Assembly: GCF_029227915.1 (NCBI RefSeq)
Contig: NC_079881.1
Coordinates: 5,644,001-5,708,000 of the forward strand
Reading direction: 5' to 3'
Length of the DNA: 64,000 nucleotides
Source: Hydractinia symbiolongicarpus
Lineage: Eukaryota > Cnidaria > Hydrozoa > Anthoathecata > Hydractiniidae
The number at the start of each line of letters is the position of its first letter. Position 1 is the first letter of the stretch. Under the pieces are notes generated by a model. The model had not been told where the DNA came from. It worked only from the letters and a program-made list of their open reading frames with translations, and searched no databases. A program made the translations under genes and the position numbers. Positions 1 to 29,056 of the stretch are shown piece after piece.

Positions 1-245
1 TATTCGTCTCTCCGCCATTTTCAATTTGATATAACTTAATAGCCAGTTCGTCTTTCTTCTTAAATCTAAAGTGGAAAAACGTACTTAATTAAAAAAAATA
101 AAGGCTTTCGCAGTGAAAAGTAATTTAAAGTATATATATACAGAATTTGTTGCACCAATGCAGGGGAATTAACCATAAATGTCGCAATGTAAAAAATTTT
201 ATGTTGCAAATCAATCAATGTCCCAAAAACAACAACACCAACAAT

Positions 246-281
<36 letters not shown>

Positions 282-1304
282 ACGAACAGAAGCAACATTG
301 ATTTAACCTAAGATGACACCATTAACAAAAATCGCAGCTTACAATTATGATCACAAATTTTGTAGTACACAAAGTGGATGAAAACAAGCAAGCAGGAAAA
401 AAAGAAGCAAGCAGACAAACTAATAGTGAAATCGCCTTAATGTTAGATATCTACCTGCAAGCACGTTCATCATAATGTAAAAATTAGTATTTTCTTATAT
501 GGAGTAGATTTGCTAATTAAGTATTGTGTTTCTCAGTGTTTATTTGTTCTGGATAAAGGTGTTGATGGAAAAGATACAAATGCTTAAACGCAGTTGATTA
601 ATGATAAGGAAACAGGTTGCAAGGGTTGTTTGTTAACATTGGTGAAAGTTGTAGTTAATGCCAATTCATTTCGAGCGATGTAGATAATCTTGTTAAATGT
701 AGTACTACAAGGCTAGTTAGATAAGGCGAACCTAACGTTGATGGCACTCGCATACCGAAGATCTCCATTTAGTAACTGTGACATGACTGATATTTTTAGT
801 ATTTTTTTGTATTAACTTTTGATTTCTGCTGTTGAGAATAGTATTATTACTTGGACATGTTCTTCAAATAGCAAAATCAGCATGTCGTTTTAGGAACTTA
901 TCAATACATTTAAAGGTGATTTTAAAATGAGCAATGCATTAAAGACAAACGCATAATATGCTAATATCATCTCTATCTAGATTATTGACGCTACTGCGTC
1001 TTAAAATGTAAATTATTTCTAAAACAATTTTAAGGTACCTTTTATTTCTTGTTTTCCTGCTTTTTTTTCAAGCTTTCGATTTTCCATGCATCCAAATAAT
1101 CTTCGGCGATGGCAACGTCTAGCTGTAAAACCTAAACGTTTTAAGTGTTAAAATTTAAATTCAAAAAATATTAAAACATTGAATCTTATACCAGTGACAT
1201 TAGAGTCCAGGCAGGCCTCGTCTAGAATAATTTGATTCAAATACTTTTTAATTACCTTGAAAACACACCAGCACTATTACCAAAAGAGCAAGTACTTTCT
1301 TCAT
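1..1304 (-). CDS. Small secreted cationic two-cysteine peptide, copy A (partial at window edge)
   Basis: Three exons on the minus strand: 1304-1256 (signal exon, MKKVLALLVIVLVCFQ), 1131-1039 and 65 to beyond base 1. All splice junctions are GT/AG and phase 1. Exon 2 reads GFTARRCHRRRLFGC followed by a charged stretch. Exon 3 has TNWLLSYIKLKM and runs off the window, so the stop is not seen. The signal peptide is probably cut after FTA, releasing a peptide that begins RRC. The two cysteines, seven residues apart, would form a small disulfide loop packed with Arg/His, followed by a charged and then an amphipathic helix-like tail. I do not recognise the family. An antimicrobial or signalling peptide is plausible but inferred. 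The gene is real by five-fold paralogue conservation (copies B-F). A TATA box and an E-box module lie upstream. Confidence 0.85.
228..282. repeat. (CAA)n microsatellite
   Basis: An almost uninterrupted run of CAA/ACA triplets inside intron 2 of peptide gene A. No coding role is seen. Confidence 0.9.
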
Positions 1305-1390
1305 TTTAATGTTAATGAGGTGTACTAGTTGTAACGTGTAGTTTTTTTGTATGTCAGTTTTCAAATGGTAAAAATACTGCTAAGTTGTTC

Positions 1391-1399
1391 TTTTTTATA
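1391..1399 (-). promoter_or_regulatory. TATA box of peptide gene A
   Basis: The minus strand reads TATAAAAAA about 90 bases before the start codon. The position agrees with TATA boxes of copies B, D, E and F. Confidence 0.6.
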
Positions 1400-1550
1400 G
1401 GTGACGTTTATGAAACACTAAATATGCAGATTGTCTATGGAAACATTGAAATGTGCTGCTTCAGTGAATGATAGGTGTTTTCTATTCTCCTATTGCATCA
1501 TTGATATGATATTATTAAACAAATACTGAAAAATGTTGCTTTATATTTTT

Positions 1551-1594
1551 ACGTGGGTGTCTCGGAAGTATCACATTACAGTTGCCAGGTGTTC
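1551..1594 (-). promoter_or_regulatory. Conserved upstream module of gene A (paired E-boxes, ETS-like core)
   Basis: On the minus strand the module reads AACACCTGGCAACTG, then ATACTTCCG and CACCCACGT. CACCTG and CAACTG are two CANNTG E-boxes one base apart, and TTCC is an ETS-type core. The same order recurs upstream of gene E, and in part upstream of B, D and F. The conservation is visible; binding by bHLH or ETS factors is inferred. Confidence 0.5.
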
Positions 1595-1599
1595 ATAAC

Positions 1600-3185
1600 A
1601 ACATCACCAACAGGGTAATAATCTCTTTGATGTGATACTATGCTGCCATTTTAACAAGTACGTCTTTATCGCTAACTCAGTCGGAAACATAAGGAGCACA
1701 TTGGCATTTTTTATTCGTCAACCACGACACGACACTTCTTTTCTAAATACTAAAAGCTTAGCATCCCTATTGACAGCTTTTTCGATATAAGGGTGTTTTT
1801 AAATATATATATTTGGGGACAAGGGATCATTGTATGGATAATCATGCATAGTTTTATTAGTACAAAAATAAAAGAGTCAAAAACATATTGGTCTATTAGT
1901 TTAGAGTTTCATGTGAACTTATTTTAATAAAATTTAACAATAATGTTTTAATCTAAAATGTTTTTGGTACTGTTGAGTCTTCTCCTATTATTACCTTATA
2001 TTATACGGCTGTTAATTGAGTTAAAATATGAGTTTTCGTTTATTAGTTATGGTTTTAATAGAAAGGAATGTTGACATGGAAACAATGATTATTTTTAATT
2101 TTTGTTTTGTTTTTGTCTCATCAGGCAGTGCATTGAAATCCATTGATATATGTATGTGCCTGCTATAATAAAAATCCAATCCTGTGTGTCACATTGCTTT
2201 GGAGGTTTTGTTTATTTGTTTTTTAACGCACCCATAACGACACGGAAGTTATACAAACATGCTTTTTTGTGTACTAGGTCAGGACAGTAAAATATTCAGA
2301 TATTTATTCATGTCCAGAAAACATCTCGAAAATTATTTGGTTTGAACTTTATAAATTTTAAGATTTTTACTTAGCTTTAGGATAGTCAAAATGTTTTTCA
2401 TGATGTCACACCTGTTGTCATTGTGACACATTGGGTATCCCTTTTTCTACTGTTGATGTTCCATCATTTTATCCTACTTAAACTGGATGATGTCATCGAC
2501 GTACTTAATCCCAGTTGTTTTCAAGTGAGCAAACAATCATTTGTGCGAAGTTTTATGAAAGTAATATTCCTCCTTAACTACTTTTGGTAGGGAGTAAGTA
2601 TGCCTTTTTAGCCCCCTTTCTCAACACTCCTGACTTTTATCTTTTAGTTTATAAAAGTCACCAATCACTATATGTTGTGATTCTTGCAATGTGGCAATCT
2701 AATCCCTGCAACATGTAAATAAAAACATTAGTGATCAAGAGTAATATAATGTTTTTTTATTTTGATCTGTCAAAGAGAAATTTGTTCATTTTTAAGTAGC
2801 ATACGCAACGCCCGTTCAATTAACGTGAGATTGTACTTGTAAAAACTTGTCCTGTGTATTTATGTCTAATTTGACTCTTCGATTATTACTTCAATTATTA
2901 CTTCGATTATTACAATTTATTGTTAATAGTACTGAGCAAAATGCGATCATTAGTTCATTATTCATTATTCAAACTGCATATATATAGTTCATTGTTAAAA
3001 GTATGTGTCTCTTTGATTGTGTGACTCAAATGTTTTGTTGGTTCATTTTATTAGAACTCGCCATATGCTATGAAAGTTATCTAAGTTTATCTTAATGATG
3101 TCATTTCGTTTTTAACGTGATCTATTCATAGGCAAGATGTTTAGAAAATCTTTACGTATCTAGTTAACGTATCCACCCTCCGGAA
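1600..3185. other. Intergenic; left arm of segmental duplication
   Basis: No gene is supported. Patches align with 19.3-21.6 kb (for example 2124-2170 with 20200-20246, and 2965-3100 with 21450-21580), so this is the 5' flank of gene A duplicated with gene D. Confidence 0.55.
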
Positions 3186-3189
3186 AAAG

Positions 3190-3500
3190 GTGAGACTATA
3201 ATTAGTCTATGGCTTTTAAGTGAAGAATTTGCCTCTAGTGCGGAAGCTCTTGGGATTCAAACCCCGGCCGAGTCATGTCAGAGACTATGAAAGTGTACCT
3301 TCTGCTTAATGTTTGGCATGAAAATAAGATTGATGTCGTAGAGGGTTGTAGGTTGAGCGACTGTTGTGTTTTCACAGCTGCCAGAGCTCAAATGGGAACT
3401 TTAAATGCACTAAGACCAACTTCGCAGGACCTTTTTGATAATATTACCATTAGGAACTGAGGAGGCCATCCTGGCTAAATAATAATAGTGATAATAGAAG
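3190..3500 (+). mobile_element. tRNA-derived SINE-like element
   Basis: A pol III box B-like stretch (GGGATTCAAACCCCGG) at about 3251-3266 follows a box A-like TTAGTCTATGG. A SINE-type body comes next, and a tail of AATAAT-like repeats begins near 3476. The 61-residue open frame inside is not a gene. It sits inside the duplicated block but has no counterpart near 21.6 kb, so it probably arrived after the duplication. Confidence 0.6.
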
Positions 3501-4600
3501 CCAACTCGAATGCGTTCATACTTCAAGTTCTATTTATAATTTTATTTTCTAAGACGTACTTTCCCAAAAAGATTTGATTTGGCTATGTATCGTTGGCTAT
3601 CGGCCAAACCGCCTGTTAGATAAGGTGATTTGAAAACATTAATTTATTTTATTTTTATAAGTAGCTATAGCTAACTAATGTTGGTGACTGTCACTAAAAA
3701 GCTGCTGGAATTTTTTAGTTATAACTAGCTAACTGGCTAGCTATTACTTGCTAGTCAAAGTGCAAGCAAAACAAGTCAGTTCCTTACGTGCAAACTCAGA
3801 ATCAGGAAAACTAGCTGATACCAGTTGTGGTGAAGAAAAGAATGATTAAGTGCAGTAAAGCAAGTCTACCTAAAATTCAGAATCCGCTGACGTGGAGTTG
3901 ACTTGCCGAAAACGTAGTGTACATACACTACGTTTTCGGAGGAGGGCAAGCTGGTGCGAATTTTCAGATAAGATTCACGCTTTTCGTCCAATAACTTCGG
4001 CACTTTTCTGTTGGAGCCAGAGCAGCTGACTTATTAGCTAGATTTGGAAGTATTTGAACCTTGCATGTATATGGCTGTATTATTATATTATACATATAAT
4101 TAAGCCGTGGTTTGTTTATATTTTAAATTTTCCACTCCCCCAGAAAGAAGCTGGGAAATTTTTGGACTATAGTATGATAATGTTAGCAGCACAAGGGCAT
4201 AAATTATTATTCTAATTTTTGTGATGAAACTAAAAGCAAATTATATATGAGCCCCTTGGTAAATATATATATTTTTTAATACGTATTTTTTAATTATTTG
4301 ACATTTTGCTTTTATTCAATTTTGGGTTAAATTTCAAAACAAAACGATGCCGTGCACGTTGTTGTTAGCCATTTTGAAATGAAAATCTTATTAAAAATTT
4401 TGACGTAATTCAAGTATAGGTTTTAACTGGCTGTTAAGTTAAAGCGCAAAGGTAGCTCGAACCAAGTAGAGTCCGTTCAACTTTTTTTTAATCGCCCCAG
4501 TGCATACAAGTGCGTGGTCATCAAAATTAATTCAATAATACGCATGCGTAAATCAAAAGTCACGACGCCTTTTACGTCCGGGCGCAAAATGCTACTGTAT
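3500..4600. other. Intergenic, no gene seen
   Basis: AT-rich sequence with the 3906-3939 inverted repeat. Nothing else can be supported. Confidence 0.5.
3906..3939. repeat. Perfect 16-bp inverted repeat
   Basis: Arms CCGAAAACGTAGTGTA and its exact complement are separated by two bases, which can form a hairpin or cruciform. No flanking element was recognised. Confidence 0.9.
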
Positions 4601-4715
4601 GGAAATTAGCCTTAATTCAGAATAAGTATACAGAAATTGATCGCAAAGCATACCATATCTAACGCTTTAACCAGCGCAAAATATTTCCAAATATAGTCTT
4701 CCTTGGGTCAAGTAT
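4600..4715 (-). pseudogene. Relic of the 5' end of a repeat-protein paralogue
   Basis: On the minus strand this stretch aligns with the promoter and first exon of the octapeptide-repeat gene at 6000-6140. It shares a TATAGTC-like segment, CCAGCGCAAA, then TCTAAC and CCAT around the start. From an ATG at 4656 it reads MVCFAINFCILILN and then a stop, where the intact gene reads MAYSAIILSLLVLT. It looks like a decayed second signal exon. The call rests on visual alignment of short stretches. Confidence 0.4.
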
Positions 4716-4744
4716 CTTATAAATCAGTAGGAGTTCTACTTCCA

Positions 4745-5045
4745 TTGTGATATGAATGCCAAACAAGCGATTTGTCCTTTAAGTAGTGTGAAAGCTGAGA
4801 ATTTGATCTCAGTTTCTTTGCACCAATCTTAGTAACTTGAAAATGTGTATAATGTGTATAAGTTCTTGTGATAGCTTAGAGGAAAGAAGAAAAAAGAAAC
4901 ATCTGAACAATTAACCTAGATATCGTGTAATGGTGAAAAGAGAAAGTAGGGTATTTCTTTGGCGATAACAGAACGCCAAACAAGTAATTTGTCTTTCAGG
5001 TAATGTGAACGCTGAGAATTCGGTCCCAGTTTTGCCGTACAGACT
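4745..5045. repeat. Imperfect tandem duplication, about 215-bp period
   Basis: 4753-4820 and 4972-5038 are clearly related. Both carry GCCAAACAAG, ATTTGTC, GTGTGAA or GTGAA, GCTGAGAATT and TCTCAGTTT or TCCCAGTTT. The function is unknown. Confidence 0.6.
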
Positions 5046-5199
5046 ATTAGAAGAAATTCCAGTATACTTATATTCCAATGTATGTGCAATGTTATTTCAA
5101 ATACAGTAAAGCCAGTTTGGATAATTTTTTACTAAGTCGCCTGTGAAAAAAGAGTGACGAAAAAAAATGATTTTATTAAATATACTTTACATCTTCATA

Positions 5200-6078
5200 C
5201 TAGGCATTTATACATGAACTGTAAATCTGTTTTCCTTTCAGAAAAATCTGAATTTTATGTTCACAGAGAGAGTTGCCACTCTTCAAGCGTTGGGCGTCTC
5301 CACTCTTCAAGCGTTGGGCGTCTCCACTCTTCAAGCGTTGGGCGTCTCCACTCTTCAAGCGTTGGGCGTCTCCACTCTTCAAGCGTTGGGCGTCTCCACT
5401 CTTCAAGCGTTGGGCGTCTCCACTCTTCAAGCGTTGGGCGTCTCCACTCTTCAAGCGTTGGGCGTCTCCACTCTTCAAGCGTTGGGCGTCTCCACTCTTC
5501 AAGCGTTGGGCGTCTCCACTCTTCAAGCGTTGGGCGTCTCCACTCTTCAAGCGTTGGGCGTCTCCACTCTTCAAGCGTTGGGCGTCTCCACTCTTCAAGC
5601 GTTGGGCGTCTCCACTCTTCAAGCGTTGGGCGTCTCCACTCTTCAAGCGTTGGGCGTCTCCACTCTTCAAGCGTTGGGCGTCTCCACTCTTCAAGCGTTG
5701 GGCGTCTCCACTCTTCAAGCGTTGGGCGTCTCCACTCTTCAAGCGTTGGGCGTCTCCACTCTTCAAGCGTTGGGCGTCTCCACTCTTCAAGCGTTGGGCG
5801 TCTCCACTCGTCAAGCGTTGGGCGTCTCCACTCGTCAAGCGTTGGGCGTCTTCATTGGTTAATTTCTGAACACCACTTAATAACTCATCTAAATAGGAGC
5901 ACATCTTTTTTACATAAAATTGTGAAATGTAAAATTTCACGATCAGTTAATTTTGAATTAGAAAATGCTTGAAAGAAATTAACGTATTAAGTAACATACC
6001 TAGTTGTCTCAGAGTGATGGGTGCAGCTGCTGTATAGGTGAGAACAAGTAGAGAAAGAATGATAGCAGAGTAGGCCAT
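5200..6078 (-). CDS. Secreted octapeptide-repeat protein (24 x DAQRL[K/T]SG)
   Basis: Two exons on the minus strand. Exon 1 (6078-6000) encodes a signal peptide and junction, MAYSAIILSLLVLTYTAAAP then ITLRQL, ending at a GTATG donor. Exon 2 (5888-5200) follows a TTTAG acceptor in matching phase 1 and reads DELLSGVQKLTNE, then 24 octapeptides (two DAQRLTSG, 22 DAQRLKSG), then a 24-residue tail with two cysteines. Total 255 residues. The signal peptide is probably cut near AAA-P. The repeats are hydrophilic, alternating acidic and basic, with no dibasic sites. I do not recognise the protein. The 24-bp period leaves several frames open on both strands, so the choice of frame rests on the signal exon and phase-matched splice sites. 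A TATA-like sequence lies at 6132-6141. Confidence 0.65.
5277..5852. repeat. 24-bp coding minisatellite, 24 copies
   Basis: Twenty-four head-to-tail units of 24 bp. Most are identical; the rightmost two carry a change that turns Lys to Thr on the minus-strand frame. The near-identity implies recent expansion or homogenisation. It encodes the octapeptides of the secreted repeat protein. Confidence 0.97.
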
Positions 6079-6131
6079 GTCTAACAAGATACCCAGCGCA
6101 AACAATCTGTGTATGTATTGCTGACAAAACG

Positions 6132-6141
6132 ATCATATATA
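6132..6141 (-). promoter_or_regulatory. TATA-like box of the repeat-protein gene
   Basis: The minus strand reads CTATATATGA about 55 bases before the start codon. Confidence 0.45.
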
Positions 6142-6780
6142 GTCCTTGCTGGTTATGAGCCACAAAAATGTTTTTAAATTAATGAAGAAAGTTGATGTTT
6201 GTAGTAGACAATTAACCAACTTTGTTCACATAAGGATTATTTATGTCACCCAAAGGGGGCAACTTGGGAAAATTATTTTTTTCAAATGCGTTAACATGTT
6301 TCAAGATGTGTATTTGATAGTAATCTTCTCTGGGATGGTGGGAAATCTCAAAAGTGTAAGGAAAAATTCAGCATTAGCATGTGCCATGTATTTACTAGCA
6401 ATTAGTGCAGAACTTTAATCTATAAAAGTTCACATTCTGGACAAGATTTATCAGCAGCAGAATGCATTCTGTCATTATGCGGTAATTTTATTCTGTGACG
6501 TTAGTGTTTGTGAAAATTACAAAAATAGTCGCACCTGCAAAAACTGTCATTTTTCGCCCGGCTGAAAGGGTTGTCTGTGTTTTTACTTTGCTGAATATGT
6601 CTTTGTGAACAATAAACTAATCCACACAAAAGAACCACAGCTTAACAGACTGTTGTTAAATTGTGCGAAGTAATAATATATTTAAACAGCAGTTTTGTAA
6701 AAATTACATTGCTGAGGATGGCACAAAAAGTAACAATAAGAAACCCAATAAATACCTTTAAACATAAATAAAACTACAAT
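6142..6780. other. Intergenic, no gene seen
   Basis: Upstream flank of the repeat-protein gene. A 90-codon plus-strand frame at 6146-6418 has no recognisable features and is treated as chance. Confidence 0.4.
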
Positions 6781-7170
6781 TTCCCATAAAATGTATTGAG
6801 ACAAGGCGGCAAATTTCGGAGTTGTTCACACAAGTAATAATATAGGCCATTTCTTTACTAGACTCACGCAATTTCAAATTTTTAATGTTCACAACGGACT
6901 TTAGTTAATTGGTTAGATTCAAACTCTCAAAATGAGATAATTGGCGCTGACGTCAGCATGGCCAGCTTTGCCAAACTGTGAAGCATTTGCATGTACTTGC
7001 GTGGATCATTCCGTAAAGTGGTCAACACAATCTAAACGTTGCTTTACTAACCGACGCAACTCAAAGATTAGCACTTCCTAGACCGACTGGATGGGGAGAA
7101 ATCACGAATTGAAGCTTTTGCTACTTTGGAAAATGTCCCAAAAAGTGTTAATGTCTCAAAAGTTTGGTAA
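6780..7170 (+). repeat. Dispersed repeat family R, copy 1
   Basis: Aligns by eye with 30535-31240 in the same orientation and with 11130-11470 and 34040-34390 inverted. Shared landmarks are TATTGAGAC..GGC, TTGGTTAGAT, GCTGACGTCAGCATGGCCA (or close), AACGTTGCTTA, GGCACTTCC and GGAAAATGTCC. Probably a non-autonomous transposon; no coding part is seen. Confidence 0.5.
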
Positions 7171-9500: not shown

Positions 9501-9521
9501 GAAAAATTTTTCTTCTCATTA

Positions 9522-9567
9522 CCAACACCTAACAACTGTCATTAAATATATCCACTACGCCCACACA
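9522..9567 (+). promoter_or_regulatory. Conserved upstream module of gene B
   Basis: ACCAACACCTAACAACTGTC followed by a TCCACTACGCCCACAC stretch. One E-box (CAACTG) is intact; the partner is CACCTA where other copies have CACCTG. Confidence 0.45.
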
Positions 9568-9727
9568 ACAATAATAACATTTTACCCCTTGTGAAAGTAA
9601 AATCTTTACGAGTTATTTATATTCAATGGAACAATTGGTAACCTTTTCTAACCCAGCGCATAAACATGCTTTCACGTTTCCATAGGTCAGTTTACATACA
9701 TACTGTCTTACTCGCATTTTTATCAGA

Positions 9728-9736
9728 TATAAAAAG
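9728..9736 (+). promoter_or_regulatory. TATA box of peptide gene B
   Basis: GATATAAAAAGGAGA lies about 100 bases before the ATG. The same sequence occurs before gene E. Confidence 0.65.
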
Positions 9737-9831
9737 GAGAAGCAACAAATAATTTTTATCATTTAAATTTTAAGTGAACATAAAAACTTATCTTATAAAG
9801 TTAACTTAAAAAGTTATCAGAAAAGAAAGTC

Positions 9832-10386
9832 ATGAAAATTGGAATAAACAAACTTTTTGTTCTTTTTGTACTGCTGGTTGCATGTTCTCCAGGTATCATT
9901 GATCGTTTATTTGCATGCTGATTTTCCCAAAGCAGAGAGACAAATGTTTAACTAATTGCCATCCGTCGAGTGCACGCGTTTTAGCAATCAAGTAATACTA
10001 AATCAATTAGAAGTTGTTCATTGTTTCAAGAAGCAAACTGTTAGTAATGGTCATCTTTGCTATTGATTTTTAGATGTTGCAGGTAGACGCTGCTATCGTA
10101 GAAGAATATTTGGATGCGTCGATTATCGAAAGTTAGAAGTAGAAGCAGAAAAACAAGAAGTAAAAGGTAAGAATTCCGTAAAGTTTGAGGTTGATCAATG
10201 TTAAAACATGCTAAATTATCTACTATGATATCTTTCCCTTTTTCTAAATGCGCGTCGTTTTATTTTTTGGTTTTAGATATCAGAAAAGTCAAAAGTTGGT
10301 TATTGACTTATATTAGAATAAAAATGGAGGAAAAACGAAGAATGGCGTACACAAAGCAAGCAGTTCCGGTTAATAAAACAAAATAA
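9832..10386 (+). CDS. Small secreted cationic two-cysteine peptide, copy B
   Basis: Exons 9832-9892, 10074-10166 and 10277-10386, joined by phase-1 GT/AG introns of 181 and 110 bases, give 87 residues. Exon 1 is the signal exon MKIGINKLFVLFVLLVACSP. Exon 2 gives DVAGRRCYRRRIFGCVDYRK and a Glu/Lys-rich stretch. Exon 3 gives DIRKVKSWLLTYIRIKM and a basic tail. Cleavage after VAG would release a peptide starting RRC. Four extra residues lengthen the signal exon compared with A, C, D and E. A poly(A)-type AATAAA overlaps the stop. It is the closest paralogue of E in sequence, promoter and 3' flank. The function is unknown; an antimicrobial-like or signalling role is inferred only from charge and the disulfide loop. 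Confidence 0.88.
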
Positions 10387-13870: not shown

Positions 13871-14084
13871 CGCATTTTGTACAGAAGTTTCATCTCTACC
13901 TTTATCTCCATAAGCTTTCTAACATGGTAACACGAAAGGACAAAAAATAGGTGGGGTTTAAATTCTAAATTCTATAATATTCACAATATAGGCAAATAAG
14001 ACATCATCAAACAAATTAAAATCTGTCCTCATTCTTTTCTATCGATTGCTGTCTGTCTCTCCACCATTTTTATTCTAATGTAAC

Positions 14085-14622
14085 TTAATAACCAGTTCTT
14101 CTTTCTCTTTTTATATCTGAATGAAAAAAGAACGTACGGGACTCATTATTTACATAAAGTACGCACAGAATTGTCAAGGTCAATAAAATCTGGAATCAAT
14201 CAGCATATAATGTCTCAATTTTGTCATTGAATTTTCGCAAATCCAGCGACAGGTATTAATGCAACAAAATGATTTTTCAGCATTGGATTTTGAAAAACAC
14301 AACAAGTATATTCTTCTATTTTAAAAACAATTATTTAAAAATTGCAAGGTACCTTTCTCTCCTTGCATCTCTGTTTTTTCTTCAAGCTTTTGGTATTCCA
14401 TGCATCCAAATAACCTTCGGCGATGGCATCGTCTAGCTGCAACATCTAATAAATTATTTGTTATACATATAATTCCAAATTTGATCTGAAATGTTTCGTG
14501 TTTAAGCAAATACAATTTCTAGCTACCTTAGAAACGTGCAATAGTGAAACTTACAATTTGACATTAACATTACCTTGAATACACACCAGCACTACTACCA
14601 TCATCGCAATTACTTTAATCAT
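14085..14622 (-). CDS. Small secreted cationic two-cysteine peptide, copy C, frameshifted tail
   Basis: Exons on the minus strand: 14622-14574 (MIKVIAMMVVVLVCIQ), 14445-14353 (DVAARRCHRRRLFGCMEYQK and a Glu-rich stretch) and exon 3 from 14116. Exon 3 carries 19 instead of 17 bases before the conserved TGG codon, so its frame becomes KRERRTGY and stops at 14085. The conserved WLL-x-Y-I tail is lost. Without the two extra bases the frame would continue to a stop at 14029-14031, as in copy D. Signal and cysteine-loop exons are intact, so it may still make a shorter peptide or be an early pseudogene. The E-box module upstream (about 14900-14945) is also eroded, which fits reduced constraint. Confidence 0.7.
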
Positions 14623-18590: not shown

Positions 18591-19159
18591 TCATTCTTTC
18601 CTGTCGACCGCTTTTTGCGTTTCCACCATTTTCACTTTAATGTAACTCAATAACCAATTCGTTTTTCTTTTAGTATCTAAATTAAAAAAAACGTACAAGA
18701 CTTATCACTAGCAAAAAGTACACACAGAAATGTCCAGACCAACAAATGCTTCAATCATTATATACCGTCTAAATTCTACCTATAAATAGTTGCAAATCCA
18801 GCAACAGCTATCACCAAGTCAAAATGATTTTGAAAAGCACAATAAATATGTCGTTCTTTTTCAAAATAATTTATTCTAAAATACAAAGTACCTTTTAATT
18901 CGCGCTGGCCTCTTTCTCCTTTAAGCTTCTGGTAATCCACGCATCCAAATAATCTTCGGCGATGACAACGTCTAGCTGTAACATCTAAGAATTATTAGTA
19001 AGAAATATATTTCTAAGTTGGATCCTAAATGTTTCATGTATAACAAAAAACACATTCTTGCTTTCCAGAAACGCGCAACAGTGATGCTTATACTTTAACA
19101 ATAGTATTACCTTGAATACACACCAGCAGTACTACCATAAGAGCAAATACTTTCTTCAT
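18591..19159 (-). CDS. Small secreted cationic two-cysteine peptide, copy D
   Basis: Complete three-exon gene on the minus strand: 19159-19111 (MKKVFALMVVLLVCIQ), 18984-18892 (DVTARRCHRRRLFGCVDYQK and a charged run) and 18676-18591 (DTKRKTNWLLSYIKVKM, then a tail ending in DRKE). It encodes 75 residues. The introns are 126 and 215 bases, GT/AG, phase 1. Signal cleavage is expected after VTA, leaving a basic peptide of about 55 residues with one C-x7-C loop. This is the best reference copy: all exons and motifs are intact. Its nearest relative is A, with which it shares several kb of 5' flank. Confidence 0.9.
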
Positions 19160-19215
19160 TTCAATGTTAATCAGATTATTAAAAAAATATTACTAAATAA
19201 ATACAGAAAAAAGTT

Positions 19216-19224: not shown

Positions 19225-19257
19225 GAACATTAGAACTATATTTAAAGAAGAATCACA

Positions 19258-19300: not shown

Positions 19301-19669
19301 AACAACACCACAAACAGGGTTATAATCTCTTTTCAGCGGCACCCTGCCGTCTTTATAAAAAGCAGACCTTTGTCTCAATTCACTTCTAGCATGAAACGCA
19401 TTAAGCTTTTCATTCACCAAACCAGACGTCAGTACTTCTTTTAAATTACCAGGTTCATTATAAACTTTTTACTATTAACAATTTATCTTATGTTATGGGA
19501 ACGGATTATGATGGATCAAGTGGCTCCGGTTGTGCACCATTTAATGATATCTCGGTACGTGTTAATAGAAAGGTATGTCGCAACAAGGACATACGCCTTG
19601 CCCTTGTCGTATGTCGCAAGGAGGTAGTATCATTGCCTAGTCTACTTCATGTGCTAGAGAGATAGCAAT

Positions 19670-19742
19670 AGATCGATAGCGCAGTCGGTAGAGCAATTTC
19701 CTTGCAAGCGAGAGCTCGTGGGTTCACGTTCCACTCGATGCA
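19670..19742 (+). tRNA. tRNA-like sequence, anticodon GCA or TGC (pseudo-tRNA or SINE head)
   Basis: The cloverleaf can be drawn. D arm GCGC-AGTCGGTA-GAGC; T arm GTGGG-TTCACGT-TCCAC; the acceptor pairs at five of seven positions, with the first two mismatched. The anticodon loop reads around TTGCAAG with an imperfect stem, so the anticodon is GCA or TGC depending on alignment. The acceptor damage and the A/C-rich continuation argue for a tRNA pseudogene or the head of a SINE, not a working tRNA. Confidence 0.55.
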
Positions 19743-20740
19743 TCATCTTTGCAGCACTTGAGAAGATAATGTGCAGGATTACTTATACCAATATAATTTA
19801 TCTTAGAAAAGAGTAATGTAGACTTAACAATTTTATGACAATATGTATATTAAAATAAAAAAGTTCAACAAAGTAAATACATAACAAGGCAATACCACCT
19901 AACTTTTCAGCTTAAGACAGTATTCTCAAATATTACTGTTAATCCTATTGGTATTGAGGGATCTAAAATGTCCCCCATTCACTCTCAATTATTTGTAATA
20001 AATCAAATGACTAGGAAATAACCGGACAAGTTTTCTTTAATGTTTATATTCCACTGTTCCATCATATATTCCACAAGTTCTGAAATATATGATGATGACC
20101 GAATGACGTCATAGTTTTATACTTACCTTATATCTTTCGGGGCTTCCTAAAGTCTCGGCTGAAGATCTGTTTACCTGCTTCTCTGATTTTTATATTGACA
20201 GGCGGTGCATTGCAATCCATCAATATCATCATGTTCTTGCTATAATGAGAACCAATTTTTTCGTTTCAAATGTTCTTTAATTCTTGCGACGCAACAGTCG
20301 CACAACTATGCTTGTACGCTACGTCACAACCAAGAAATATCCCGATATTGCGCTATACAAATTGTTTTCCAGAATCATTTTTAGGGAAATATCTTCGGTG
20401 CAGGTAGCCAGGGTTATTATAAAATAAACCCTCTGAAATCTATAAAAATTTTTGTGATTACATCTGAAATGGTGTTTTTGGAGTTGAAATTTTCATAATT
20501 TTCAGTTAGCTTTATGATTTTTTAAAAAACCTGTTGGTATGATATTACACCTGCCGTCTTGTAGCAGTAATATATCTTCAATAACTTATAAAGAAGGTTG
20601 CCTTTTTGTCAAAAAGACAAAAACTAAAAAGGGCTGAATTTATGAAATTCAAAAGTCACTATATAACTACATCCGTTGCAAATTCCTCTTTCAACATGTC
20701 AATAAAACACCTTAGTGATCGAGAAACTTCTATTATATAT
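19743..20740. other. Intergenic; right arm of segmental duplication
   Basis: No gene. 20180-20250 and 20640-20740 align with 2110-2170 and 2630-2740. Confidence 0.5.
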
Positions 20741-20759
20741 TCTTTATCATTGCTATAAA

Positions 20760-21300
20760 AATAACAGGTTAAAGAGTAGAATACCGCTATCAACCCGAAT
20801 GCACTCACTAGCCCTTGAAAACGATTCGAGTTCTCCAAAATCATGGGCTGCAGCAACTTGGAAAACACGGTGGCGAGAATCGAATTTTCGACTCAAACAA
20901 TTCATACCAGATCCGTCGGATAAGCCTAATGGTCACGACCTTGAGCGCCGACATTGGGTGTTGCTAAATCGTATCCGCTCAGGGTACGGAAGATATGCTA
21001 ACTTCATGCATAGAATTGGATTAGTTGATAGCCCAAATTGCGTCTGTGGTGAAATTCAAACCCCACAACATGTACTGACATGCCAAAGAATTGATATCCG
21101 AGGCAATATCGGAACTGTTGATGATGATTTTCGTTCGTGGCTACGCGATAATACTATTTTAGATATATGATAGGATTTTATCATATGTTTTGGAATGTAT
21201 ATCTAGATTATCAGTGTCATACTCTACTGCTCATACGCATATATATACTAAAATTCTATCTATTTTCCAAAATTTTAGTTTACGGGGTTACTAATTAGGT
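20760..21300 (+). mobile_element. LINE 3' end: C-terminal part of a non-LTR reverse transcriptase ORF
   Basis: A plus-strand frame from about 20770 to 21170 reads LKSRIPLSTR, then HDLERRHWVLLNRIRSGYGR, then CVCG-x4-TPQHVLTC. The WxxLNRxRxGxGR block plus CxCG..T-x2-H-x4-C is the usual C-terminus of non-LTR retrotransposon ORF2 proteins, downstream of the polymerase core. Fingers, palm and endonuclease are absent, so it is a 5'-truncated dead copy with a short AT-rich 3' tail. Flanking sequence on both sides aligns with 2.6-3.1 kb, so it inserted after the block duplicated. Confidence 0.75.
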
Positions 21301-21834
21301 ACAATTCTCTATACAATTAACGAGTCATTACCAGCACAATATAAATATGATTATATTTATTCAATGCACTTACTAGTTCCTATTCAAACTTCATGCAACG
21401 AACTAAACTATTATTTTATTGTGATTCTGCTTATTGCCTCAACAGGAATCACATATATATAGTCCATTGTTATCAGAATGTGCCTCTTTAATTGTGGGAT
21501 TGAAATGCTTTGTTTTCTCGTTTTATTGCAACTCACGGTGGCATCAAACGTTATATAACTTTATCTTTATGAAATTTTTGAAGAGAAGTTCTTATCGTTG
21601 CTAATCTCTATATTAATAACAGCTGTAGTTTGTTTATCGGCTAAAAGCGCTTCGTAGTAATCACACACGAATTTTCAAGCCGCAAAAATATTGCGACATA
21701 TTTTCACCCACCTTGTTTTGACCCTTTGCGCCTAATCGACTAATTATGCAACCTAGTTCTTATAGCTAACTAGCACTTTGTAGGCATTGAGTCTATCTGC
21801 CCATGAAACATTTGACATTCCCATTGTATAGGTA

Positions 21835-21965
21835 TTAGGCATCTCCACTTTTCAGGATACCTGCTATTGTAGGCGTTTGGCGTTCCCACTTTTCAGGCGT
21901 CTGAAATTTCTGACTTTGTTGGCTTCGAGCATCTCCACTCTTCATGTGTTAGATATCTCTACGTG
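21835..21965 (-). pseudogene. Decayed paralogue of the octapeptide-repeat exon
   Basis: Diverged 24-bp units (CATCTCCACTTTTCAGG, GGCGTTCCCACTTTTCAGG, GCATCTCCACTCTTCATG) lie in the same orientation as the minisatellite at 5277-5852. The right edge GTTAATTaCcGAA matches the exon-2 start at 5857-5875. Reading the DAQRL frame on the minus strand soon breaks. It occupies the expected position between D and E in the duplicated block. Confidence 0.6.
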
Positions 21966-21969
21966 TTAA

Positions 21970-23040
21970 TTACCGAATGTCATTCTGGGGCTGTTCACAT
22001 GAAAAATGCTTTCTCGGTTAGCTACTGTGCGAAACCAAATATGGCTCCAATTAATGGTATACATTATGTTGTTCTCCTGAATCCTTGTAAATAAAATATT
22101 TTAGGTACGAACAAATAAAAAAGTCAAGAAAATCAAATGCTAAGGGTTTTTTTTAAAAAACGTGTGCTGCAGGAACAATGCCTTTGACTACATCTCGCTG
22201 TTGAGGTGATATAACATTAGTAATAACTAACTTTAAAGTAGTCAAACACTTCATGTGTTTATAATTGACCCAAGTCGTTTCATTTTTATTTCATAGATAT
22301 GCGCAAAAACTTAGGTTTGATAAGTATATTATAGGAACAACGGTGAATAAATGATGTGCCTACAGTGATATGCGAATGTTGCAAAATTAGTTGATCGAGT
22401 GGGATCTACCCATGTCTTCTTGATGAATGGCGAATTACTAGTTTTATGCTAAGACAGACAATATGGCAAAGAGAACTCTGCTGCAATCGATAATGCTTTA
22501 TTAATTTCTATAATACAACTTCAAGCCCTTCGACAGTTGCGTGATCACTCCATCAAACATCACAGATGCATATCAAAAAGAAAGAATGCATTCATAAAAA
22601 AGTCTAAATTGTAGTTTATTTTGTGTACGTGAAAATGTAAATAAAAAATGTGTACCAGGAAGGCTCAGTTTTGTTTTTTACTTAAAACAAAACACAATAT
22701 GCGGGAACATCTCTTAAATGATATTTAGGCATAACAAATTGTTGCACTGTAATAAATAAAAAGATTTTAGTTTTAAGAAGCCAAATATTCAGAACATTTT
22801 TACGTTCAGATTATGAACATAAATTTTTATAAACGTCCTGGCTCCTGGCTTCTGCGTCCTGCGTTCTGCATCCTGAATATGAGATGTTGTTCACGTATTT
22901 TGCTATGGATACATTGCGGGTGGAAAACATGAGGCGCTTTTTGCCCCAAAACATAGTTGCGTCATTAACGCAACATAAAAACACTAACATAAAAACACTA
23001 AGGTGTCGGTCAATAGAAAGTATGATCATAATGTTGTCAT
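21970..23040. other. Intergenic; duplicated upstream flank of gene E
   Basis: No gene. 22270-22600 is related to 8200-8600. Confidence 0.45.
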
Positions 23041-23042
23041 TA

Positions 23043-23088
23043 CCAACACCTGACAACTGTCACTAAATACTTCCGCTGCACCCACATA
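23043..23088 (+). promoter_or_regulatory. Conserved upstream module of gene E
   Basis: CCAACACCTGACAACTGTCA then AAATACTTCCG then GCACCCACAT. Both E-boxes and the TTCC core are intact, matching gene A in order and spacing, about 280 bases before the ATG. Confidence 0.5.
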
Positions 23089-23255
23089 AGAATAACATCA
23101 CCCTATTGAAAGCAAAAATATTTTACCTTAATATGATTCTTTTAAATTCAATGGAAAAAGTAAAAGCCAACTTTTCCTATCCCAACACATAAACATGCTT
23201 TAACCTTTCCACAAGTCATTCTACATACATACTGTCTCACATGATTTTAATTAGA

Positions 23256-23265
23256 TATAAAAAGG
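23256..23265 (+). promoter_or_regulatory. TATA box of peptide gene E
   Basis: GATATAAAAAGGAGA, identical to the one before gene B, about 75 bases before the ATG. Confidence 0.65.
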
Positions 23266-23332
23266 AGATTCAACAAAGACATTTTTAACATTTAAATATT
23301 AAAATAAAACAAGTTTCAAGAAACACATTGAA

Positions 23333-23841
23333 ATGGATAAACGTCTTGTTCATTTTATAGTGCTGGTTGCATGTATTCAAGGTATTATTGATTGTTTTAT
23401 TTTACATGCCGTGTTTCTCAAAAGAAGGAGTCAATTTCTTAATTAATTGCCATTCGTCCAGTGCACGCTTATTGTGTGGTTGTTATATGCAATAAAGTAA
23501 TACTAAATCGATTAGAAGTTGTTCATTGTTTCAAGAAGCAAACTGTTAGTAGTGGTCATCTTTCCGATTGATTTTTAGATGCTACAGATAGACGCTGTTA
23601 TCGTAGAAGATTATTTGGATGCGTGGATTATCGTAAGCTAAAAGTAGACGCAGAAAAACAAGAAGTAAAAGGTAAGACCTTCGTAACGGTTAGAAGAAAA
23701 AAAATGTTCAAGATTTTTACATGCTAAAAACTGTTTAATAATATGTCGCCATTTATTTATTTTGTAGATATCAGAAAAAGTAAAAATTGGCTGTTGAATT
23801 ACATTAGGATGAGAATACGCAAAACGAGCAGTTCAAGTTAA
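23333..23841 (+). CDS. Small secreted cationic two-cysteine peptide, copy E
   Basis: Exons 23333-23381 (MDKRLVHFIVLVACIQ), 23579-23671 (DATDRRCYRRRLFGCVDYRK plus charged run) and 23768-23841 (DIRKSKNWLLNYIRMRIRK, then a Ser-rich end) give 71 residues. The introns are 197 and 96 bases, phase 1. Compared with B, the end of exon 3 has lost bases and shifted frame, replacing a 20-residue tail by a short serine run; the WLL-x-YIR motif is kept. Asp before RRC makes the signal cleavage position less clear than in other copies. AATAAA at 23850 lies just after the stop. Confidence 0.87.
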
Positions 23842-23859
23842 CAAAACAGAATAAAAGGG

Positions 23860-25980
23860 GATGTTTTTCACATTTTGAAATCATTTTATAGCGAATGATT
23901 TGTGTTATAAAAATTAAAATTTATATTATAACAACTACACATTGCATTTGCTTGATTTAAACTTTTAAGCCTGCCTTTAATGGATTAAACTAAACGAGTG
24001 TTGAACAAGCGTAAAATTATTGTGATGATTTCATTAGTAAGTCCTTTTATGGTTCTCACATAGTCTCTTTTGTGACAAAAAGGATTTATGGGTAAGTAGA
24101 CAAGTTATGTCATCAACTTCAACCTATATGCATTTGTATTCGGTAATAAAAGCAGAGTCATCATGTGCAGTATTATTGTTCTAATGAACAATAGTACTGA
24201 CAATTGCCTGGATGAACGCACATACTTTTTTTGCTTTAAACTTATATGTATGGCATTTATACATAGTCAAAAAAAGGCGAAAATTCATCAAATCTAGTAA
24301 CAATATTTAAAACAGTTGGTTTGAGCAATGCCTGATAATTAGTGACGTAATTAATAGAGTCACAACTTCTTCAACAATGATGCCATTATAAAAATATTAA
24401 GACTGGCAAAGTTTTAAGCAAGATTTTAATTTGTTGGAGACATTTAATGATGCATACCGAATAGTGAAATTATTAAACATGAACGTACGTTTCGAAACGG
24501 GGCGTTGTCAATAACTTTATTTTCATGGCTTCTTGACAAACACAGAAACCTACTTTTTTTGGTTAACATCGGCATTTCGTTTTGGCTGAAATCCAAGTTG
24601 CGGGAGATGAAAAGAACTGTACTGAATTGTTAAATTTATATTAGACGTGCTACTAACAGCGCATGCGCGCAATTCGCGCACGTTTTTGCAGTGCCAAATC
24701 CCAAAAAGAAACCCTGATTCCAGAATTTTCTGAAATCCGGAAGCATCGCAAGTAAACTATGAAGTAAAAAGGCGTCGTGATTTTTTAAAAAATAATAACG
24801 AAAGGAAGATGTTTGCCTTAAAGCAGAATATATCAAATTACAATGGAAAAGTTTAACTACTTTTTTACCCTTACTCAAATTGTGTTAAGATGAAGTTATA
24901 AAGCTTTTACAGCCCATTGTGAGTTAGAACAAAAAAACACATAAAAGATTTCAGTTACACAATCAAAAAGACGCATAATAATGAACTATAAAGGCCACCT
25001 AAAATAATGAAGGCCACCTTTTCACGCAACAAATACAAACATAGTCAAAGAACATTGACTAATTACGTAAGTTTAAATAAGGATTGTATTGTATTGATTA
25101 TAAATTAATATTAAATTATACAATTCTATTCATTGAATAATTTAAATATTATCATGTCATGAACAAGTGAGTATATTCTAGGGCACGTTTCGACCGCTAC
25201 AGCTGTCATCGACGGGCAATGATCGTAATCATCTTTGGAAGAAAAAAGTCTAAAATATGAGACAAACATGCAGAGTACCAATTATTATAAATAGAACTGC
25301 CATCAAGCTTAGTCTTCAGCTGATATTACCACGAACCTAATTAATTAACCTCTTCAAAAATACAAACCGGCTCTCAAATTGGTGTTTTTTTACGTGGCAG
25401 GGTCGTTTTTCACGCGAGTTTTTGGCCCAATAATAGACATGTTGAGCTACAGACAAAGTTCCTGTCTAAACCAAAAAAGATAAATTTGGAAAAATGAGGA
25501 GACATCAAAGCGTGCGGTGCAAAACGTTCGAAGTTTGTCAGTATAAGTGAAGTTGAAGTTTTGTTGTTGTATGTGGTGTTGCAGTTAACCCAAATCAGAA
25601 GGTAATTTTAAATTACATAGCTGATTAGGAAAAAAACTTTCCAGAGTTCACTGCACAATTACAAAAGGTTATGAAAAATAAAATTTCCGCTAATTTCATT
25701 TCTGCGTTTCTAAAGAGAAAATTTCCTGATAATACATTATATGGTAAAGAAAGAATCGATATAATGCAAAACGTTAAGTTAATTCATTTGATTTGATTCC
25801 GATTAAGCCAAAAACGTTTCTTTACTGCCAAAACTTTTTGGAAAGAAATTTTAACTTCTTATAATTATAACATATATTCCAATTTGCGTATTTTGTGATG
25901 TTAATTTTTATAGCTTCCATTATAATCATTCTAAGCTTTAGGAATTTGTTTTGTATGTTTATATATGCAATAAAACTAAT
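23860..25980. other. Intergenic, no gene seen
   Basis: 23870-24090 is the duplicated 3' flank of gene E. Beyond that nothing recognisable. Confidence 0.45.
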
Positions 25981-25984
25981 CATA

Positions 25985-26190
25985 CAATCAATGACTCACA
26001 CTCTGTATACTAAGCATGTCACACTACTCTGTACTCTGAGCATTTCACACTCCGTATAATAAGTCTGTCACACTCCGTATACTGAGCATGTCACACTTCG
26101 TATAGCACACTTCGTATATGAAGCATGTCACACTTCGTACAGTATACTTCGTATATAAAGCATATCACACTCCGCATGGCATACACCTTA
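25985..26190. repeat. Degenerate CACACTCCGTATA minisatellite
   Basis: About eight imperfect units of CACACTYCGTATA-x(0-4)-AAGCATGT or GAGCATGT. Related ACTCCGTATAGC units recur near 26455-26520. Confidence 0.75.
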
Positions 26191-26453
26191 TACCACATTT
26201 TGCATAGTCTGCATAACATGCTCTCAGTATCTAACAATCTGTTGCCATAATCCGTTTGCTGCAATCAAAAACTAATGTTCGCGTATGTATAGCTACAATA
26301 TACTTCGTATGTTTACGATGGATAAAAAAGTAGGACAAAGATGTGCTTGTCTTTTTAACTTAATCTTTATGGTAATTATTTTTATATTTTTTTCGGAAAT
26401 AGTTTTAAAAAAGTCATATATTGCAATATTTCACTTTAAGAACATTCGTTGGC

Positions 26454-26522
26454 AGACTCCGTATAGCTAAACCAAACTCCGTATAGCAGCTATACGGAGT
26501 ATTACTCCGTATAGCTGCTATA
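26454..26522. repeat. CCGTATAGC palindromes
   Basis: ACTCCGTATAGC and its complement alternate, including one near-perfect 25-base palindrome at about 26474-26498 and a second inverted unit directly after it. This extends the motif of the neighbouring minisatellite into hairpins. Confidence 0.75.
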
Positions 26523-26749
26523 GTGGAAGTGGAAGTCATTATCTAGTTACCTCAAGTTGGAATATGACCTTTTAGTCCAATACAGAGACTGTGCATATCT
26601 GTCTGTAACAGGCAGAGTGGATAGGTTCATTTTCCTTTGATGTTGCCGAAAAAGGTATGTCTCAAATGTTAAATTTTCTGACGGTACGGCGCGACGTCAA
26701 TAACATTAATTTAACGTCAATATCTTATGTTCAAATAATGCAGCCATTA

Positions 26750-27240
26750 CAATGCACTAAAAACTTTAAGGCCGAATAACTTGGAAGCGAGGTAGTTACG
26801 GCAGTCTTTTTTCACCGCGTGTATAACTAGGGACCACCTAGGACCAAATTGGGTAAGTTTTCCAAACCAGGGTTCCCGAATCCGTGTCCGAATGAACGGG
26901 TTAATGACGTCATCAAAAAATCTTAAAAACCCTCTGCAACCGTTTATCAAAGATACATGATCCTATACATTCTCTTAATCAGCGTTTCAAGTTCTATACG
27001 ATAAATGGGTATACAAATTTTTAACAAAAAATATTTTTTGTACTTTTGGTAGGGACTTTGCTGACGTCAGCAAATTTTTTAAAACTTTTTATTTTCTTAA
27101 CCGTTCGTCAATAGCACTTGATACTATACATTTTTCTCATCAACGTTTTAAGCTCGGCACATTATTGGAAACCGTTAAACAAATTTCGCCATTTTTTTGT
27201 GCATGCACTGCTGACGTCAGCAAAAGACCCTAAACAACCT
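26750..27240. repeat. About 165-bp tandem repeat with TGACGTCA palindromes
   Basis: Three diverged units, each ending in a TGACGTCA core (near 26906, 27061 and 27212; two as GCTGACGTCAGC), each with ACCGTT, CTTRATACTATACATT-like and GTTTYAAG segments. The core equals a CRE/ATF palindrome, but it more probably marks repeat-unit ends. Confidence 0.6.
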
Positions 27241-27945
27241 ATTTATTTCCATTATTCTTCAGTTTTCTCCTTTCTTCGACTATGATATGTCTCTTCTTAT
27301 TAATGGTTCCTATTTAGAGGTCTTGCACGACGCTACATAATAAAGAACGAATCCTTTTTTTATAGACGGCTATAGCTTTTGTGTGGGTAGTGGTAAAGTA
27401 TTTTATTTATGCATACTTATGTAAACGCGAGAGTCTCGGTAATCTCAACAATAGCAGCATCTTCTCGTTCTCAGTCTTCACTTTTCCTGCTACTAGACAT
27501 GCTAATTCAAAGGCATGAAAAAAAACATTCGATACGAAGGGGATACATCGCTTAGCTACATGCTCGCAATACGTAATAGAGTTTTAGCTGCATATTTAAA
27601 TCAGAATAGGACATTGTTAGAGATAATGGAGAATATTATTATTAGAAAGTCAAGAACATACTTGGTAGTAGAAAGTTAAATCGTGCATACGCAACAGAAA
27701 GGTGGAAACACTTGCGTGCCTAGATAACATTAAGAGTTTTTTTGGTTACAAAGGTTACCATGTATAAACGGAAACTTTCTATGTTTACATATGCACAAAG
27801 TTCGGTTGCATCAGTCTTCTATTTGATTGAGCGCTATTTAATTGACAGCTGAATTGCTATGTCAAACTCAAATAAATAAAACATGTTTGAATTTATAGCT
27901 AAACATAAACAAATGAATGTTTTTATCCGAATCAAAAAGTGTCTC
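27240..27945. other. Intergenic, 3' flank of gene F
   Basis: No gene. 27730-27840 matches 10990-11100 in reverse (3' flank of gene B). Confidence 0.45.
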
Positions 27946-27949
27946 CCTG

Positions 27950-28973
27950 TCATGTTTCGTCAATTTGAGCGGGTGGTTCTGTAAAAGTATTTTGCCTGTT
28001 CGTTATTTGGATTTTTATGTAGCTCAACAACCAATTACTCTCTCTTCTTATATCTAAAGTAAAAGAGGACAAAGATAATAAAAAAAAATAATAAATAATT
28101 ATAGCTACAGTAATTAAAAAGTTTCTACAAATTGCTACAAATGCAGACCTTTCACTTCTTGTTTTTCTGTTTTTGCTTTCAATTTATATTCCATGCACCC
28201 GAATAATCTTTTGTGATAACAACGTCTTGACATGCTTTCTAAATAATAGTTCGTTGAATTTTTTGAATTATTGATCAAAGATGCTTCGTGAAAACAGTTC
28301 TATTACTGTTACACAATCTTCATACACTGATTACTTTTGTCTGAAGATTGACCGGTAAATCACCAGGCCAGGAATTGTGTCCAGGCGTTAAGCGGCGGGT
28401 CATATGGACATTTTTAGTCATAAACGTAAGATTGTTCGTTTAGCTACTTTTAACTATGGGATCTAACTTAAATATGAAAAATATTGCTGGCAATCAACCA
28501 GACATAATCCGAAGTCAATCTTGACACACAGAAAAATGTACAAGAGACACTTGTAGTTTTATTTTGACTGTTGTCAGACCTGGTCATTATCTAAACATAT
28601 CCAAATAATCCAAAATTATTTATACTTTATATCAGAACCATTGCTAGTAAACATAACCACTCAGAAATATGTTTTAGCAGTAGCAATCTGGTATGGCATA
28701 AAAATGTTAATACTAGACTACATTCCTCCATAGGAGAACCCTACCAGTATCCATAGCTTATTCTGGAACACCTGCAGACTATACAGCATGTCCACAATTT
28801 GAAAAGCTTAGCCCCTAGTTAGTCATTTAGACGGACCAATTAAGTTTTAACATTGGGCAAAAATAGACATAAGTTGAACTTTTGCTCATAGAAAAGCAGA
28901 TTCTACTTTAAAAAAATTTGATACCTTGTAAATACACCAGCAATATTACAATCAAAACAAGTTGCTTTATCAT
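27950..28973 (-). CDS. Small secreted cationic two-cysteine peptide, copy F
   Basis: Minus-strand exons 28973-28925, 28238-28149 and 28053-27950, phase 1, 80 residues. The signal exon reads MIKQLVLIVILLVYLQ. An in-frame ATG two codons earlier (28979) is possible; the inner one was chosen because it gives the 49-base exon of A, C, D and E. Exon 2 (one codon shorter) reads ESMSRRCYHKRLFGCMEYK. Exon 3 reads DIRRESNWLLSYIKIQ with a longer, less basic tail rich in Thr, Pro and Gln. The first intron is 686 bases, the longest in the family. It is the most diverged copy but fully open, so constraint on RRC-x7-C and WLL-x-YI holds across the family. Confidence 0.85.
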
Positions 28974-29056
28974 TTTCATGTCGATTGAGTGCTATGACTT
29001 GAGATTATATCGTAATCATTCGATCAAATGGTAACAACGCAAAGGTTCTTTGGTCA

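Follow-up and report, generated by a model that had tools for sequence, protein, structure and literature searches.

A cluster of seven related genes for small, probably secreted peptides in Hydractinia symbiolongicarpus

A cluster of seven paralogous three-exon genes in the hydrozoan Hydractinia symbiolongicarpus would encode short peptides with a positive charge. Judging from their sequences, these peptides are probably secreted, and they may, by analogy with Hydra, help the animal to control the microbes on its surface. Hydractinia is a model for the study of stem cells and of allorecognition. The antimicrobial peptide families of Hydra are reported to have no homologues in Hydractinia (PMC10945409). 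The genes described here provide a concrete and testable set of candidates with exact gene models, in which seven copies reveal which residues cannot change. The cluster would also give one more independent example of a hydrozoan peptide family that is clustered and possibly lineage-specific.

Results

The genes were located by a translated-motif search and rebuilt from sequence. Positions refer to the window, which is the whole stretch of 64,000 nucleotides that was analysed. The original prediction described six paralogous three-exon genes with identical phase-1 introns, five of them with full-length open frames. All six, A to F, were rebuilt where it had placed them; C is frame-broken and the other five are open. 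A seventh copy, G, lies about 10 kb outside the window. In each of the seven gene models both introns are in phase 1, and all junctions are GT..AG. The shared architecture consists of a signal-like exon, an exon with the core RRC-x3-R-[LI]-FGC and an exon with WLL-x-YI. The core had been predicted as RRC-x-basic-LFGC; in gene B, IFGC is found. The precursors have 71 to 87 amino acids, and 57 in the broken gene C.

1..1304, minus strand: gene A, exons 1256-1304, 1039-1131 and 65 to -41, the last continuing beyond the window start; 82 amino acids, open
9832..10386, plus strand: gene B, exons 9832-9892, 10074-10166 and 10277-10386; 87 amino acids, open; core RRCYRRRIFGC
14029..14622, minus strand: gene C, exons 14574-14622, 14353-14445 and 14029-14116; stop after 57 amino acids, loop intact, frame break in exon 3
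18591..19159, minus strand: gene D, exons 19111-19159, 18892-18984 and 18591-18676; 75 amino acids, open
23333..23841, plus strand: gene E, exons 23333-23381, 23579-23671 and 23768-23841; 71 amino acids, open; nearest to B
27950..28979, minus strand: gene F, exons 28925-28979, 28149-28238 and 27950-28053; 82 amino acids, open; exon 2 one codon shorter
-10522 to -9237, plus strand: gene G, the seventh copy, open
10085..10117, plus strand: conserved core in gene B as an example, RRC to GC (C-x7-C), predicted beta hairpin
10277..10386, plus strand: exon 3 in gene B as an example, D-x-[RK][RK] with a dibasic pair, then W-L-L-x-Y-I, predicted helix
9728..9734, plus strand: TATA word in gene B as an example

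A single genome search, in which 11 candidates were scored, gave at least nine matches at E<=0.001, all within one 39-kb stretch of one chromosome; counts from this search are lower bounds. In the gene tree, B and E form the sole well-supported group (100), and the remaining nodes have support of 40 to 55. That direct and inverted duplication produced the seven-gene cluster is well supported by the sequence. Upstream, a TATA word is located 65-104 bases before the ATG in six of the seven genes, C being the one without it. Two simple patterns, applied to the gene strand over the 400 bases upstream of all seven genes, found no kappa-B site. The flanking DNA of the cluster genes is also duplicated. 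An Rfam scan of the window gave no matches.

The coding frame was compared with its alternatives. Exon 2 has no stops in the coding frame and 9 and 12 stops in the other two frames in six of the seven genes, F being omitted for its one-codon gap, and it was stop-free in 11 of 2000 column shuffles. The first 17 codons of exon 3 after the D have no stops, against 16 and 6 in the other frames (six genes, C omitted), and this exon 3 core was stop-free in 31 of 2000 shuffles. Weaker signal, or none, came from the 33-base loop alone, which was stop-free in 515 of 2000 shuffles, and from the number of invariant residues, which was reached in 93 of 2000 shuffles for the loop, in 202 for exon 2 and in 75 for the exon 3 core. 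Across the copies, the mean dN/dS is about 0.09 in the loop (18 of 21 gene pairs usable), where change is mostly synonymous, 0.44 in exon 2 after the loop and 0.80 in exon 1. Judged by the stop counts and the low dN/dS of the loop, the frame is coding; the loop is, on good support, the most constrained part of the predicted precursor. Between A and G, which have a coding dN of 0.109 and a dS of 0.108, the loop residues are unchanged while the spacer has changed at 7 of 16 positions. A second frame of exon 2 (DVAIAEDYLDAW...), which resembles an amphipathic helix, was rejected, as it has stops in several copies and is out of phase with the other exons.

Exon 1 is hydrophobic and signal-like in all seven genes. 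By the -3/-1 rule, used without a trained predictor, a cut directly before RRC is permitted in five of the seven; A and E fit the rule only at earlier sites, and E has an Asp at the expected cleavage site. From RRC onward every copy has exactly two cysteines. The charge of this part ranges from +4.7 to +12.7, with F and the truncated C at just +4.7. By region, it is +4 to +5 in the loop, -1 to +3 in the middle and -1 to +8 in the C-terminal part (six genes, C being without it), a profile with no clear anionic half. The product had been expected to be strongly basic, which holds for A, B, D and E (pI 10.25-10.79, +10.7 to +12.7) and less for F (pI 9.5, +4.7). By eye, RR immediately precedes the first cysteine in all seven copies, a dibasic pair straight after D-x is found at the exon 2/3 junction in all seven, and no Gly-basic amidation site is common to the seven sequences.

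Folded separately, exon 2 gave a predicted hairpin and helix (mean pLDDT 68, pTM 0.25) with strands at 7-11 and 14-17, and exon 3 a predicted helix (mean pLDDT 78.5); both models are of modest confidence. Taken as a helix, the WLL segment was more amphipathic than its own shuffles at the 5% level in none of the seven copies. At the beta-strand angle, two of the seven (G and E) fell below 5% against shuffles, a result at odds with the helix model.

No Pfam family model matched the cluster proteins. The PDB sequences, in a library of chains of 20 residues or more, gave no relative. The PDB matches, four at E 0.0019 to 1.1 in one search and one at E 1 in another, were short and helix-like and were read as chance; among those listed were three designed TIM barrels, a p63 chain and a ribosomal protein. 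In a large protein database none of 1601 candidates passed E<=1; a control from the same genome, a HEPN_DZIP3-domain protein, was also missed (0 of 1499 candidates at E<=1e-5), so this negative result carries little weight on other cnidarians. Of 70 pattern matches in bacterial contigs and 47 in viral contigs, none was confirmed. Five motif strings occurred in none of the papers of a library of 5.39 million, and the main text of the Hydractinia cell atlas (PMC11876637) had no match to the terms searched. A 2019 bachelor's thesis covered antimicrobial peptides from the H. symbiolongicarpus transcriptome, according to the available part of a paper that cites it (PMC11820242). The view that the core belongs to no named family agrees with Pfam, the PDB sequences and the literature strings; within the limits of these collections, the peptide family is apparently undescribed.

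Discussion

There is, in our estimate, an even chance that the cluster encodes lineage-restricted host-defence peptides of H. symbiolongicarpus. The signal peptide of exon 1 would target the product for secretion, with cleavage by signal peptidase near RRC, and the two cysteines would close a nine-residue ring holding an Arg-rich beta hairpin, followed by a basic helical part with WLL-x-YI. The hairpin could bind negatively charged bacterial surfaces and the helix could serve as an anchor, and microbes on the colony epithelium would be killed or restrained, as by the lineage-restricted antimicrobial peptides of Hydra. This reading draws on analogy with the clustered families of Hydra and with bactenecin and tigerinin-1, whose rings have nine members. 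We count in its favour seven paralogues of one gene structure at one locus, the signal-like exon 1, the charge, the two cysteines of each copy, the constraint on the loop and the predicted hairpin and helices. Against it we count the non-amphipathic WLL helix, the low charge of F and C, the lack of an anionic half and of kappa-B sites, the Asp in E, and mature parts of 51-63 residues, which are long for a single-hairpin antimicrobial peptide.

The antimicrobial families of Hydra are small, secreted, charge-biased, clustered and lineage-restricted, with a common exon structure (PMC10945409). The Hydractinia peptides are like arminins, periculins, hydramacin and NDA-1 in being small, charged, predicted to be secreted and hydrozoan (PMC10945409 and PMC5614986, in the parts available). 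Clustered paralogues of similar exon structure, shown in Hydra for periculins, are found here in all seven copies. However, most Hydra peptides have their positive and negative charges in two separate parts, according to the accessible sections of PMC10945409, and no clear anionic half is seen here. The same sections give periculin a complex cysteine pattern, and the available text of PMC5614986 gives NDA-1 ten cysteines, against two in the Hydractinia peptides. Sequence kinship with arminin, periculin, hydramacin or NDA-1 was looked for through Pfam, where no model matched the Hydractinia peptides.

The C-x7-C ring, putative here, has the size of the nine-membered rings of bactenecin (Cys3-Cys11) and tigerinin-1 (Cys2-Cys10), and the basic character is that of bactenecin, as given in the part of PMC4410394 at hand. 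Those are 12-residue peptides, whereas here the ring opens a product of 51-63 residues with a predicted helical second part. The likeness seen is one of ring size and basic character rather than of sequence.

Thanatin and arenicin-1 and -2 are 21-residue peptides cut from longer precursors, and their cysteine spacing differs from that of the Hydractinia peptides. They share with the Hydractinia peptides one disulfide and a single hairpin, both putative here, and differ in that arenicin proproteins have a BRICHOS domain, which Pfam did not find here (PMC13001179, available portion). No solved single-disulfide beta-hairpin antimicrobial peptide matched at E<=10 in the PDB, chains under 20 residues being outside the library.

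Two other readings involve the dibasic pair that all copies have where exon 2 meets exon 3. We consider it possible but doubtful that the precursor is composite, with a dibasic hinge, present in all copies, linking a disulfide-closed Arg-rich hairpin to a basic WLL-x-YI helix; a single gene would then yield either one two-headed membrane-active protein or, once cut, two different effectors shaping the Hydractinia microbiome. It is unlikely that the genes encode signalling-peptide precursors, in which a convertase would cut at this pair to release two peptides with receptors as their targets, one a C-x7-C ring and the other with WLL-x-YI. The pair itself and the RR before the first cysteine, both present in all copies, would suit such processing, and the strongest constraint falls on the loop, as expected of a receptor ligand. 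Dibasic pairs are, however, common in any peptide rich in Arg and Lys, one lies inside the loop, and a shared amidation site is absent; hormones also less commonly occur as seven diverged copies whose spacer is loose. The available text of a review of cnidarian neuropeptides includes no such peptide (PMC9545775).

Secreted peptides with some other fast-evolving task, such as the interaction of gametes or larvae, a part in mucus or cuticle, or prey capture, are similarly improbable: duplication with a loosely evolving spacer and signal exon is typical there as well, but nothing found here points to such a task, and a single disulfide with high charge is unlike the cysteine-rich cnidarian toxins. 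Decaying repeats that merely resemble genes are very unlikely. The frame break in C and the duplicated flanks would fit decay, whereas six of the seven copies are open over three exons with intact splice sites, shuffled columns of exons 2 and 3 are rarely stop-free, change in the loop is mostly synonymous and the TATA word is in place in six of the seven. A reading as a cell-cycle inhibitor is hardly credible. The sequence R-x-L-F-G, with a helix and a W after it, resembles the cyclin-docking domain of Cip/Kip proteins; by eye, R-x-[LI]-F-G is spaced alike relative to an acidic residue, L and W, and a helix is predicted downstream of the loop. Yet exon 1 is signal-like in all seven copies, and such an identity was not supported by profile or PDB sequence searches, with no match to PF02234 (CDI domain) at E<=10 in six proteins (C not included; the HMMER filters may drop weak matches) and no such chain among the PDB matches at E<=10.

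As a minor observation on the upstream DNA, CRE half-sites are scattered before six of the seven genes.

Gene models and extent of the cluster

Translated motif scans of the window found six exons that encode the core RRC-[HY]-[RH]-[RK]-R-[LI]-FGC, each in phase with a hydrophobic exon upstream and an exon encoding WLL-x-YI downstream. The six three-exon paralogues of the original prediction, A to F, could all be rebuilt with GT..AG junctions, and both introns split a codon after its first base, as they do in a seventh gene, G. Five of the six are open to the stop, as had been proposed (A, 82 residues; B, 87; D, 75; E, 71; F, 82), while a frame break in exon 3 of gene C ends its product after 57 residues. 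Two elements precede the window (negative coordinates):

-41, end of exon 3 of gene A
-10522 to -9237 (+), gene G, open, 82 residues, tail to tail with A

The genome (480.9-Mb assembly, 76 contigs) was searched with one query, the rough protein of gene C, and gave at least nine matches at E ≤ 0.001, with 11 candidates scored; these counts are lower bounds. All matches are located on NC_079881.1, which carries the window, between 5,633,637 and 5,672,233. A tblastn search with the proteins of A, B and D-G covered the 134 kb surrounding the cluster and found no further copy, matches elsewhere reaching no better than E 0.13. The GC content of the window is about 30-40% in 2-kb blocks. An open frame of 154 residues inside the cluster, 20706-21170 (+), resembles by eye the end of a non-LTR retroelement protein; it has no Pfam match at E ≤ 0.1.

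Genes G and A (-10522 to 1304) form a convergent inverted duplication that includes their flanks, with 81% identity over 1.9 kb, mostly upstream of the ATG. Identity is 71% over 1.0 kb for B and E, and 72% over 0.8 kb for C and D. The gene tree strongly supports only B+E (100), the other nodes having 40-55. A TATA word lies 65-104 bases upstream of the ATG in six of seven genes, which are related copies and hence not independent.

Coding evidence and constraint

Exon 2 has no stops in frame and 9 and 12 in the other frames (genes A-E and G), and 11 of 2000 column shuffles were free of stops. For the first 17 codons of exon 3 after the D (A, B and D-G), the stops number 0 in frame versus 16 and 6, with 31/2000 shuffles stop-free. 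The loop from RRC to GC is too short to be judged by stops (515/2000). Invariant residues are a weaker coding sign, their observed number being reached in 93, 202 and 75 of 2000 shuffles for the loop, exon 2 and the exon 3 core, respectively.

The dN/dS comparison suggested with the original prediction was made across A to G (NG86, mean as ratio of means), and its values are rough because the codons are few. The mean is 0.09 for the loop (18/21 pairs usable), 0.36 for exon 2 (20/21), 0.44 for exon 2 after the loop (19/21) and 0.80 for exon 1 (18/21); in exon 3, dN is 0.27 and dS is saturated (11/15). Single pairs scatter widely, up to 2.4 for A/G in exon 2. Over the full coding part, A and G differ with dN 0.109 and dS 0.108; residue changes number 0 in the loop and 7/16 in the spacer.

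Predicted product and possible function

Counted from RRC, the products of the six open genes are 51-63 residues long, with exactly two cysteines each, pI 9.5-10.8 and net charge +4.7 to +12.7; that of truncated C is 37 residues long, also has two cysteines and carries +4.7. The proposed basic product with two cysteines holds for every copy, but F and truncated C reach only +4.7. The -3/-1 rule allows a cut directly before RRC in 5/7 genes; in A and E it permits earlier cuts only.

Exons 2 and 3 of B were modelled separately, and the models are silent on how the two parts pack. Exon 2 (six-row alignment) is predicted to have strands 7-11 and 14-17 and a helix 18-29 (mean pLDDT 68, pTM 0.25; five models 56-68), and exon 3 (five rows) a single helix 2-28 (mean pLDDT 78.5). 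Amphipathicity of the WLL segment exceeds that of its own shuffles in 0/7 segments as a helix and in 2/7 at the beta angle, which is evidence against a classic membrane-lytic helix.

The absence of a named family with this core was borne out in Pfam (two chance matches, E 0.85 and 1.3) and in PDB sequences (no credible match). Bacterial and viral contigs gave no confirmed match, and five core motif strings occur in no paper of the literature library searched. A search of 5.8 billion proteins also gave no match; it is no test for other cnidarians, because it equally missed a control from the same genome, a HEPN_DZIP3-domain protein with a good Pfam match (E 2.2e-21).

PMC10945409 describes Hydra antimicrobial families as small secreted proteins of biased charge, in clustered paralogues that arose by repeated duplication, and reports that homologues were found in neither Hydractinia nor Clytia. 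On that description, the Hydractinia cluster resembles these families in its signal-like first exon, its clustered genes, its basic charge and its loosely evolving spacer, but lacks the anionic half and the complex cysteine pattern. Furthermore, its predicted nine-membered ring has the size given for bactenecin and tigerinin-1 in PMC4410394. Because of this family pattern and ring size we favour host-defence peptides, a reading with roughly an even chance of being right. At the exon 2/3 junction, all seven genes encode D-x and then a dibasic pair, so the product may be cut into two peptides; such a cut would also suit receptor ligands, which we consider unlikely, and other secreted roles seem improbable to a similar degree. 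The cluster may overlap with earlier work: PMC11820242 cites a 2019 bachelor's thesis in which antimicrobial peptides from the H. symbiolongicarpus transcriptome were active.

Other features of the window

5276-5851, minisatellite in which a 24-base unit occurs 24 times (99% matches); five reading frames are open, both strands counted
40447-43343 (+), astacin metalloprotease exons (41286-41460, E 9.1e-16); they also encode a long Thr-rich linker and cysteine modules of chitin-binding appearance by eye
47963-52835 (-), HEPN_DZIP3-domain frame (E 2.2e-21) upstream of a second one whose STAND-NTPase and TPR matches are weak and below cutoff; the two probably belong to a single NLR-like immune gene
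60315-60680, two copies of a 183-base unit (98% matches)
62194-62586 (-), open frame of 130 residues whose match to DDE_1 transposase is weak and below cutoff (E 0.029)
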